Assembly (NCBI RefSeq): GCF_008000815.1
Contig: NZ_CP042806.1
Location: 3,162,001 to 3,226,000, forward strand
Direction: 5' to 3'
Source of the DNA: Terriglobus albidus
GTDB taxonomy: Bacteria > Acidobacteriota > Terriglobia > Terriglobales > Acidobacteriaceae
Length of the DNA: 64,000 nt
A model generated the notes under the pieces. That model was not told the DNA's origin. It did not search any database and saw only the letters and a program-made list of their open reading frames with translations. Both the position numbers and the translations under genes were made by a program. This document shows, piece by piece, positions 5,158 to 7,149 of this stretch (position 1 is its first letter; every line of letters starts with the position of its first letter).

Positions 5158-5269
5158 CGAATTTCATGAAGAGTGGTTGAGGGACGAGCCCTGTGACACC
5201 ACGACAACCGGACAGAACAAAGGCGTACCGGTGTCAACTCTCTCCTGGCGACAGGGAACATGAGATTCG
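5158..5269 (+). promoter_or_regulatory. SAM-I-type (S-box) riboswitch
   Basis: All helices of the SAM-I fold can be drawn. P1 is 11 bp, 5158-5168 with 5259-5269, with one G-U pair. P2 is GTGGT 5173-5177 with ACCAC 5198-5202. The core reads GAGGGACGAGCCCTGTGA, close to the family's GAGGGA-CUGGCCC-GAUGA. The GGCAACC element appears as GACAACC. P3 is ACCGG 5207-5211 with CCGGT 5228-5232, and P4 is CCTG-GCGA-CAGG at 5244-5255. SAM-I aptamers bind S-adenosylmethionine and lower expression of methionine/SAM genes. This one precedes the threonine-synthase-like gene by 113 bp on the same strand. Confidence 0.85.
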
Positions 5270-5355
5270 GAGTAGGAAAGTTGCAAGTTCCCACCCCGCG
5301 CCTCCTCGTTCCCGAGTTAAGGGCGCCATCCAAGAGAGACGGTCATAGGTAAAGC

Positions 5356-5373
5356 CCTCCGCCATATGGAGAG
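5356..5373 (+). promoter_or_regulatory. Shine-Dalgarno within a possible sequestering hairpin
   Basis: GGAGAG at 5368-5373 is the ribosome-binding site of the gene starting at 5383. CTCCG at 5357-5361 can pair with TGGAG at 5367-5371, hiding it. No intrinsic terminator with a T-run lies between the aptamer and the gene, so control of translation initiation is the simpler expression-platform model. The stem is short, so this is only a suggestion. Confidence 0.4.
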
Positions 5374-5382
5374 CAAGGCCCT

Positions 5383-6666
5383 ATGTCTTCCGGTGCGTGT
5401 GCGCCCTACGATCTGAAGTGCAAAGAGTGCGGCAAGAGCTATGGCAAACAGCCGCTTTCTATCTGCGATGAGTGCTTTTCGCCGCTTGAGGTCTTTTACG
5501 ACCTGGACGCGGTGAAGGGCAGCGTGACCCGGGAGTCCATCGCTGCCGGGCCGGCAAGCATCTGGCGCTATCGTGCGCTGCTTCCCATTCCTGAGGGTTT
5601 CCAGCCCGATCTTCCGGTGGGCTTCACACCATTGGTCAAGGCCAAGAACCTGGGCAAGCGTCTCGGCGCTTCCGATATCTACGTGAAGAACGATGCCGTC
5701 TGCTTCCCGACGCTAAGCTTCAAGGACCGTGTCGTCGCTGTGGCCTTGGCCAATGCCCGCTACTTCGGCTTTGATACCGTCGGCGCGAGTTCGACTGGCA
5801 ACCTGGCGAACTCAGTGGCTGCGCAGGCCGCCCGCCTGGGTCTGAAGAGCTGCATCCTGATTCCGGCTGACCTGGAGCCGGCAAAGATTCTGAACACGCT
5901 GATCTACGGCGCGCGCCTGGTGCGCATTGATGGCAACTACGACCACGTCAACCGCCTGTGCTCGTTGATCGCCGACCAGTACAACTGGGGCTTCGTCAAT
6001 GTGAACCTGCGGCCTTACTACGCTGAGGGTTCGAAGACGATGGGTTATGAGATCGCCGAGCAGCTCGGCTGGCGTCTGCCCGACAACGTCGTGGTGCCGA
6101 TGGCTGGCGGATCGCTGATCCGGAAGATCAAGAAGGCCTTCGACGAGCTGGTGTATCTCGGCATCGTCGAGGCAAAGCACGTGAAGTTCTTCGGAGCGCA
6201 GGCTACGGGCTGCTCGCCGATCACCCACGCGGTGAAGAACAACCTTGACCGCCACGAGCCGCAGAAGCCGAATACCATCGCCCGCTCGCTGGCGATCGGT
6301 AACCCGGCGGACGGCCCATACGCAGCCCGTCTGATCCGCGAGACCGGCGGCTGGGGTGAGGATGTCTCCGACGTTGAAGTTGTCTCCGGTATCCAGGAGC
6401 TGGCAGAAACTGAGGGCATCTTTACGGAGACAGCAGGCGGTGTAACCACCGCCGTGACCGCGAAGCTCTTCGCACAGGGCCGCATCGGTAAGGATGAGAC
6501 CACGGTGGTCTGCATCACAGGCAACGGCCTGAAGACGACCGATGTGCTGCAGGGCAAGTACGACGTCGGACGCGCGGTGAAGCCGCGGCTGGCCGAGTTC
6601 GATGCCTATCTGCGGGAGCTGGATGGTCTGCCCGCTGCGGAAGAGGCTGAGCTGGTGGCTCAGTAG
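5383..6666 (+). CDS. thrC: Threonine synthase family PLP enzyme (possible homocysteine-forming)
   Basis: 427 residues. A zinc-ribbon-like start (Cys13-x2-Cys16 and Cys28-x2-Cys31) is followed by a fold-type II PLP domain: the Schiff-base lysine is Lys114 in PTLSFKDR, with 'GASSTGNLANSVAAQAA' for substrate/phosphate contacts and 'AGGSLIRKIKKAF' lower down. The family converts O-phosphohomoserine to threonine. Here the gene lies behind a SAM riboswitch and 52 bp ahead of a MoaD/ThiS-like sulfur carrier, so sulfhydrylation of O-phosphohomoserine to homocysteine is a reasonable alternative (inference). Sequence alone does not separate the two activities. Confidence 0.85.
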   Translation: MSSGACAPYDLKCKECGKSYGKQPLSICDECFSPLEVFYDLDAVKGSVTRESIAAGPASIWRYRALLPIPEGFQPDLPVGFTPLVKAKNLGKRLGASDIYVKNDAVCFPTLSFKDRVVAVALANARYFGFDTVGASSTGNLANSVAAQAARLGLKSCILIPADLEPAKILNTLIYGARLVRIDGNYDHVNRLCSLIADQYNWGFVNVNLRPYYAEGSKTMGYEIAEQLGWRLPDNVVVPMAGGSLIRKIKKAFDELVYLGIVEAKHVKFFGAQATGCSPITHAVKNNLDRHEPQKPNTIARSLAIGNPADGPYAARLIRETGGWGEDVSDVEVVSGIQELAETEGIFTETAGGVTTAVTAKLFAQGRIGKDETTVVCITGNGLKTTDVLQGKYDVGRAVKPRLAEFDAYLRELDGLPAAEEAELVAQ

Positions 6667-6718
6667 TGCTGGGCTGATGCCCAGGTGGACGAGAAACAGA
6701 AAGAGCAGGGAAGATTCA

Positions 6719-7000
6719 ATGTCAATCAAAGTACTTTTGCCGACCGCCTTTGTCCGCCATACCGATGGCGTGAAGAAGGTTGACTCCGCCGCTACCAACC
6801 TGCCGGGCTTGGTCGATGACCTGGGTGTGAAGTTCCCGGCGCTTGGTGCGCATATCAAGGACGAGCAGGGTAAGTTGCGCCCGTTCATCAACGTCTACGT
6901 GAACGATGAGGACATCCGCTTCCTGGGTGGCGAGACCCACACGTTTGAAGACGGAGATGAGATCATGCTGATCCCGTCGATTGCCGGCGGGTGTGTGTAA
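6719..7000 (+). CDS. MoaD/ThiS-family sulfur-carrier protein with C-terminal GGCV
   Basis: 93 residues with a beta-grasp pattern ('SIKVLLPTAFVRHTDG', 'FINVYVNDEDIRFL', 'FEDGDEIMLIPSIAGGCV'). Family members are adenylated and thiocarboxylated at a terminal Gly-Gly. Here Gly90-Gly91 is followed by Cys-Val, so two residues would have to be removed first, as is known for QbsE of thioquinolobactin synthesis, trimmed by a JAMM protease. ATG 6719 begins the beta-grasp strand; GCAGGGAA upstream is a plausible ribosome site. It is in one transcript with the threonine-synthase-like gene and ends at a strong terminator. No E1-like or JAMM gene is in the window. Confidence 0.85.
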   Translation: MSIKVLLPTAFVRHTDGVKKVDSAATNLPGLVDDLGVKFPALGAHIKDEQGKLRPFINVYVNDEDIRFLGGETHTFEDGDEIMLIPSIAGGCV

Positions 7001-7016
7001 GGCTTCGTTCCGCGTG

Positions 7017-7060
7017 AAAAAGAAGAAAGCCCACCAATTCGGTGGGCTTTCTTCTTTTTT
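7017..7060. terminator. Intrinsic terminator, usable in both directions
   Basis: A near-perfect stem of about 15 bp (arms around 7021-7035 and 7041-7055, loop AATTC) is followed by a run of T on the plus strand and preceded by a run of A. It closes the riboswitch-thrC-carrier transcript and can also stop transcription of the minus-strand gene ending at 7150. Confidence 0.9.
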
Positions 7061-7149
7061 TACGACGGAGATGCCTATGAGAAGCAATAAGAAGCAGATT
7101 TCTCCGCTTCGCTACGAAATGACAAACAAAGGTCGTCGTACTTTTCCTT

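Follow-up and report, generated by a model that had tools for sequence, protein, structure and literature searches.

The window analysed here, 64,000 nucleotides of the soil bacterium Terriglobus albidus (GCF_008000815.1, contig NZ_CP042806.1, positions 3,162,001 to 3,226,000), contains a short operon that very probably encodes a MetM-MetO pair under feedback by S-adenosylmethionine (SAM), in which homocysteine would be made from O-phosphohomoserine with sulfur delivered by a small carrier protein. The MetM/MetO route is already known from Streptomyces (2024), and the window holds a further member of it, in the Acidobacteriota; the genome comparison below indicates that the route is common in the class to which T. 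albidus belongs. The operon, all on the + strand, comprises:

5158..5269, +: SAM-I riboswitch aptamer (RF00162, cmscan), with helix P1 formed by 5158-5168 and 5259-5269
5270..5382, +: probable expression platform (leader fold)
5383..6666, +: MetM-like pyridoxal phosphate (PLP) enzyme, 427 amino acids (Pfam PALP, TIGR00260, AlphaFold model)
6719..7000, +: MetO-like sulfur carrier of the ThiS family, 93 amino acids (ThiS match)
7016..7061, +: intrinsic terminator (fold of -42.5 kcal/mol)

The original prediction, made from the letters of this DNA alone, had recognized a SAM-I aptamer with an 11-bp P1, a thrC-like gene, a MoaD/ThiS-like gene and a single terminator, and all of these were recovered. 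A covariance search matched RF00162 at 5161-5266 (+) over the full model (1-108) with 71 bits and E=1.4e-14, above the gathering score of 44.4. No other Rfam match in the window rises above gathering, and among the 150 of 468 first-look candidates scored across the 6,405,582-base genome no second RF00162 match reaches E<=0.001. All of P1 is readable in the sequence, and the minimum free energy fold keeps 10 of its 11 pairs, with C5158 pairing elsewhere. In the leader fold, CUCC (5357-5360) and GGAG (5368-5371) form a hairpin able to sequester the purine-rich ribosome-binding region ahead of the ATG at 5383, which weakly suggests translational control by the riboswitch. Leaders of relatives were also folded, using the 69 of 79 SAM-I leaders with a start found and z-scores from mononucleotide shuffles. 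In the 40-nt fold of all 17 same-genus leaders, one or more bases of a Shine-Dalgarno-like 4-mer are paired; the mean fold z is -1.46 for these 17 and -1.27 for the family's 28 other leaders. The short hairpins are out of register in a MAFFT alignment of 16 same-genus leaders (G015, a copy of G012, was omitted).

At the other end of the operon, GCCCACC-AATTC-GGTGGGC followed by TTTCTTCTTTTTTT forms a strong hairpin with a T-run. It is absent from the pattern-scan list of the window, we guess because the T-run is drawn into an A/T stem. The same scan found 0 promoter matches, with 0.5 expected by chance. The common strand, short gaps and single terminator argue for one transcript spanning riboswitch, enzyme and carrier.

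The enzyme open reading frame (ORF) matches Pfam PALP (2.5e-67) and passes the generic thrC model TIGR00260 (272.8 bits, cut-off 167.1), a score that speaks for family membership and is not proof of product; annotation by that model would therefore say threonine synthase. Its AlphaFold model (predicted local distance difference test score 86.6) has threonine synthases as PDB matches 1-21. The PLP lysine, K114 in SFKDR, is invariant in all rows of an 11-row and a 28-row alignment, which have the window row in common, and the N-terminal cysteines C13, C16, C28 and C31 form a putative zinc ribbon. Identity is 32-33% to the genome's two other ThrCs and 57% to a Nonomuraea protein that comes with a SAM-I and a carrier; this protein stood in for actinomycete MetM in the comparison. 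In a tree of 41 rows, support of 100/99 separates 38 MetM-type rows from three ThrC rows, although the length of the outgroup branches calls for caution.

One loop distinguishes the two groups. It is NPYRLEG in the ThrC next to thrB, EPYRIEG in this genome's other ThrC, and NPHRLEG, NPYRLEG or NPYRIEG in three PDB threonine synthases, whereas in the MetM clade it is usually NLRPYYAEG, a shift from PYRxEG to LRPYYxEG; the motif pattern returned nothing for 4 of the 38 MetM rows and for one ThrC row. The arginine of the P[YH]RxEG loop is typical of threonine synthase, where we take it to be the binder of the substrate phosphate. It is lost in the MetM clade and not present in the window enzyme, which has Tyr213 at its place, and R210 and Y213 are invariant in 28/28 and 11/11 rows.

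The carrier ORF matches ThiS (9.2e-11), and its best PDB matches are 3dwg (1.4e-17), the chain of which we take to be M. tuberculosis CysO, and 4n6e (9.5e-17). Its C-terminus reads IPSIAGG-CV, that is, with Cys-Val beyond the diglycine, a feature missed by the original prediction. A diglycine capped in this way should need trimming, which is probably the work of a JAMM protease whose gene lies outside the window, in a cluster with cysM, cysO and an E1. That cluster, cysM-JAMM-cysO-E1::rhodanese, lies at genome 151-154 kb; its JAMM has 80 bits to Prok-JAB and an intact HSHP...SSTD motif, the E1 carries the rhodanese domain, and the CysO is capped too, by 12 residues ending CCR.

The rest of the genome bears directly on the function of the pair. 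The window gene can be ruled out as the housekeeping threonine synthase because two other ThrCs exist, one at genome 4161579 beside thrB (homoserine kinase, 4160683) and one at 2817622; the original prediction had named a lack of any other threonine synthase as part of what would speak against it. It had also proposed looking for loss of the classical homocysteine genes, and here the outcome is divided, in that MetA and MetX appear lost but paralogues of the cystathionine gamma-synthase (CGS) and cystathionine beta-lyase (CBL) type remain. The genome search gave no match for MetA. The best MetX match (L026) has 94 bits and was rejected, as it scores 424 bits against PRK06489, another alpha/beta hydrolase family. 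There are 15 PF01053 matches, four of them strong and the other 11 at <=38 bits, and none of the four passes TIGR01326 or TIGR01325, the MetY/MetZ cut-offs. With no MetA, no convincing MetX and no MetY/MetZ pass, the acyl-homoserine route seems absent from this genome. Two adjacent PF01053 genes at genome 198.7-201.0 kb resemble CGS and CBL, without reaching the curated cut-off of either model.

We compared 150 related genomes, the window's own included, at thresholds of E<=1e-100 for MetM and E<=1e-60 for MetX. MetM was found in 100 and MetX in 29, and only 5 have both where 19 are expected (Fisher p=1.2e-9). A strict MetX cut-off of 500 bits is reached by none of the 29, nor by control genomes. 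For kinship the table was split by family only, not set on a species tree, and the near exclusion is seen in both parts: among 71 genomes of other genera of the same family, one genome each, 2 have both, 34 MetM only, 17 MetX only and 18 neither (p=3.9e-5), and among 60 outside the family the corresponding numbers are 3, 42, 7 and 8 (p=0.0013).

SAM-I was matched 88 times in 86 of these genomes, and 79 of the matches lie <600 nt upstream of MetM on the same strand (79 of the 100 MetM genomes, median 138 nt); G042 is counted among them, though at 44.3 bits it is just under the 44.4 cut-off. A carrier ORF lies within 1.2 kb downstream of MetM in 82 of 100 loci; in 4 more it is part of a longer ORF, and in 1 it is truncated at a contig end. 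The conserved set of riboswitch, thrC-like and moaD-like elements that the original prediction proposed seeking in other Acidobacteriota is seen, with SAM-I at 79 and a carrier at 82-87 of 100 MetM genes. We also examined the best 80 of at least 580 named loci, chosen by MetM similarity only, with some genomes shared with the set of 150; by record title these are from Acidobacteriota, Cyanobacteria, Nitrospirota, Nitrospinota, Planctomycetota and others. SAM-I is present in 22 of these best 80 and a carrier ORF, up to ~1.6 kb after MetM, in 75.

Among the 21 MetM genes without SAM-I, 12 have a SAM-II-type aptamer upstream. RF00521 matches were obtained in 10 of 15 loci searched, albeit at 23-35 bits, below the gathering score of 36 (E 0.0004 to 0.6), and in lists where other families, matching terminator hairpins, have similar scores; a further RF00521-type aptamer lies in L145. 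A SAM-II-type model of our own, trained on 15 of these sites, extends the set by L134, an extra copy in L149 and the named loci L191, L194, L195 and L197 (not used in building), L195 being the same locus as L107, with an identical leader and a contig of equal length; the remaining 30 MetM loci gave no match to it. By eye, each of 12 SAM-II-type leaders shows one or more hairpins with a T-run downstream of an aptamer. Four of the nine MetM genes left (G009, G040, G101 and G110) start within ~210 nt of a contig end. In five loci from other Acidobacteriota families, SAM-II-type aptamers stand in tandem upstream of metM, below Rfam gathering or unseen by Rfam, with a hairpin and T-run after several of them:

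L142, 1201-1395: tandem SAM-II-type
L144, 1173-1359: tandem SAM-II-type
L149, 1197-1390: tandem SAM-II-type
L138, 2812-3006, -: tandem SAM-II-type
L135, 2855-3042, -: tandem SAM-II-type

Tandem SAM-II is known, with 44 examples in an excerpt of PMC9481103.

Extensions beyond the diglycine are common in these carriers. Tails were counted in the 82 clean carrier ORFs beside the 100 MetM genes, whose rows are related so that the counts are not independent: 67 extend past Gly-Gly and 15 stop there, Cys is the first residue after Gly-Gly in 27 of the 67, and 84 of 396 tail residues (21%) are Cys, against 1.0% in the remainder of the same ORFs. The cyanobacterial carriers in the best 80 of at least 580 named loci mostly end at Gly-Gly. 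JAMM was found in 144 of the 150 relatives, and its presence therefore cannot tell capped from uncapped carriers. Capped carriers elsewhere need a protease to free the diglycine, as exemplified by QbsD (excerpt of PMC6006322), and Iyer et al. proposed, in the portion available of PMC1779556, that JAB peptidases could cut off a Ubl-like moiety and so free a C-terminus for sulfur transfer.

Taken together, these features suggest the following path. O-phosphohomoserine would come from ThrB. The JAMM protease of the 151-154 kb cluster would remove Cys-Val from the carrier, baring Gly-Gly, after which the ThiF/MoeB-rhodanese E1 would adenylate the carrier and swap adenosine monophosphate for sulfur, giving the thiocarboxylate MetO-COSH. 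MetM, working on PLP, would expel phosphate from O-phosphohomoserine and add the thiocarboxylate sulfur instead of water, yielding homocysteine either directly or after JAMM frees a carrier-homocysteine adduct. At high SAM the riboswitch would close, possibly masking the ribosome-binding site. This would shut the branch from phosphohomoserine to methionine but leave the thrB-linked ThrC free to make threonine.

Three other accounts deserve weight. The enzyme could be an ordinary, perhaps third, threonine synthase whose riboswitch regulates threonine flux, as its TIGR00260 score and its 21 leading fold matches would have it; moreover, a cyanobacterial homologue is active as such, since Microcystis ThrC, 51.6% identical to S. 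albulus MetM, is described in the available part of PMC12172450 as a threonine synthase and deaminase in vitro, judged not fully working as MetM. We nevertheless hold this to be very unlikely, given the two other ThrCs (one beside thrB), the much lower identity to these than to the Nonomuraea protein, the shift of the loop arginine, the carrier linkage over several phyla, the control by both SAM-I and SAM-II, and the near exclusion with MetX. It is also conceivable, if improbable, that homocysteine is made from free sulfide and that the carrier is merely helpful or serves another acceptor. The MetM genes with no carrier found nearby would suit this, as would G128, which pairs MetM with MetY and MetX; against it are the carrier beside most MetM genes and named loci, and a carrier in G148 that is detached from MetM yet stands under its own SAM-I. 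Finally, homocysteine could arise mainly by transsulfuration, with CGS acting on O-phosphohomoserine followed by a beta-lyase, and MetM being secondary. The adjoining CGS-like and CBL-like genes favor this, together with a CGS-type gene led by SAM-I in G116 and G142, two relatives with no MetM or MetX detected (L268 and L269; 500 and 504 bits, cut-off 513). However, SAM-I is at none of the four strong PF01053 genes of T. albidus (again with one RF00162 match among the 150 of 468 candidates scored), and none of its genes comes closer than 47-49% identity to the SAM-I-led CGS of G116 and G142. We hold this account to be quite improbable as well.

Several observations do count against a carrier-dependent homocysteine synthase. 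Apart from the pass of the thrC model and the Microcystis results, the latter meaning that the MetM clade may hold both threonine and homocysteine synthesis, no carrier near MetM was found in 13 of 100 loci, and at our thresholds MetM and MetX are both missing from 26 of the 150 relatives. Four strong Cys/Met-metabolism PLP enzymes are kept in the genome, and transsulfuration by CGS and CBL is therefore possible if CGS accepts phosphohomoserine. The hairpin signal of the leaders is missing in more distant relatives (mean fold z of -0.17, n=11, and 0.15, n=13); both SAM-I and SAM-II are lacking upstream of MetM in G022, G023, G029, G036 and G067, where upstream sequence is available; and no SAM-I at gathering score occurs in the cyanobacterial loci among the best 80 of at least 580. 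Even so, carrier-dependent homocysteine synthesis, which the original prediction had put forward, gains support from the separate ThrC and ThrB, the lack of a MetA match, the near exclusion with MetX, the two riboswitch classes and the linkage to a carrier.

The cap itself could be a control point. Both MetO and CysO of Acidobacteriota might be inactive precursors with fast-changing Cys-rich tails, such that a single JAMM, ripening both, governs how sulfur is shared out between cysteine and methionine. The tail cysteines might sense metal, redox state or persulfide, or enable Gly-Gly-Cys to make a thioester unaided. We offer this as a long shot.

A number of neighborhoods vary the arrangement seen in the window. 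In G128 (L128), SAM-I, MetM, MetY, MetX (489 bits) and MetW form one cluster, with no carrier in the stretch examined. L215 has the order SAM-I-MetM-carrier::NIL-E1-PALP-JAMM and L216 the order SAM-I-MetM-carrier::NIL-PALP-CysM-JAMM; in these SAM-I-led clusters the NIL domain is fused to the carrier after the diglycine (L215 4268-4783, L216 4257-4772). In L266 (238-2219) SAM-I precedes a stand-alone carrier, 60% identical to that of the window, and then an aspartokinase, and in L267 and L270 it precedes NifS-like cysteine desulfurase genes (433-456 bits, under the nifS cut-off of 530.75). Seven MetO carriers (L072-L077 and L079) have in common a Cys-rich tail with CSYCG after Gly-Gly. Judging by the translations of L170, L180 and L184, a CysO-type carrier there seems to run straight on from its diglycine into a MoeB/ThiF-type E1, as a direct fusion. 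L045 (5545-10157) has a ThiF-domain gene, a JAB-domain gene and then three ORFs, which may belong to another kind of ubiquitin-like system, and in L155 (648-3528) a CGS/MetY-like gene, a JAB-domain gene and metX stand in a row, which recalls the carrier route of Wolinella.

These results suggest a possible way to methionine for many Acidobacteriota, abundant soil bacteria of which 121 of 150 relatives lack MetX at threshold. In several phyla, genes named threonine synthase by the standard model may be homocysteine synthases. The Streptomyces discovery gains independent support from the rarity of genomes with both MetM and MetX and from the use of SAM-II in place of SAM-I at metM, and how the capped Cys-rich carriers mature is a question that experiments could address. 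In the open-licence PMC literature, with most subscription papers outside its scope, we found nothing on MetM in Acidobacteriota, MetM/MetX exclusion, SAM-I/SAM-II exchange at metM, or a Cys-rich capped MetO.

The closest known system is MetM/MetO. In Streptomyces, Hasebe et al. (2024, Appl Environ Microbiol 90:e01247-24) reportedly found a downstream carrier, MetO, whose thiocarboxylate gives its sulfur to O-phosphohomoserine. The operon resembles this system in its ThrC-like PLP enzyme, upstream SAM riboswitch and adjacent Gly-Gly carrier; it differs in belonging to the Acidobacteriota, in the Cys-Val cap, in having JAMM, CysM, CysO and E1 in a separate cluster, and in the use of SAM-II rather than SAM-I by some relatives. 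MetM is the homocysteine synthase of Streptomyces, a ThrC-like PLP enzyme, and metM of S. albulus has an upstream SAM riboswitch, according to the portion available of PMC12172450. This bears out the original prediction's mention of similar pairs in actinomycetes, as does the SAM-I, MetM and carrier of Nonomuraea.

M. tuberculosis CysM converts O-phosphoserine to cysteine with sulfur from CysO. The CysM/CysO/Mec system shares with ours the PLP fold type, the carrier family, a JAMM protease and a MoeB-type E1, but the window genome has its own cysM-JAMM-cysO-E1 cluster for the cysteine role. The Wolinella succinogenes system is said to use a MetY-type enzyme, O-acetylhomoserine and a trimmed carrier, whereas the window enzyme is of the ThrC type. 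That system, HcyS/MetY/HcyD, is the subject of Krishnamoorthy and Begley (2011), cited in an excerpt of PMC5764234, whose title names protein-thiocarboxylate-dependent methionine biosynthesis. As to the cap, PtmS2 ends in GG-MV and PtmS3 in GG-C, and the JAMM-family gene ptmS1 is needed in Streptomyces (in the part available of PMC6006322). The window carrier is like PtmS2, PtmS3 and the QbsD system in having one or two residues beyond the diglycine, although PtmS2 and PtmS3 serve thioacid natural products and the capped carrier of the window lies in a methionine operon.

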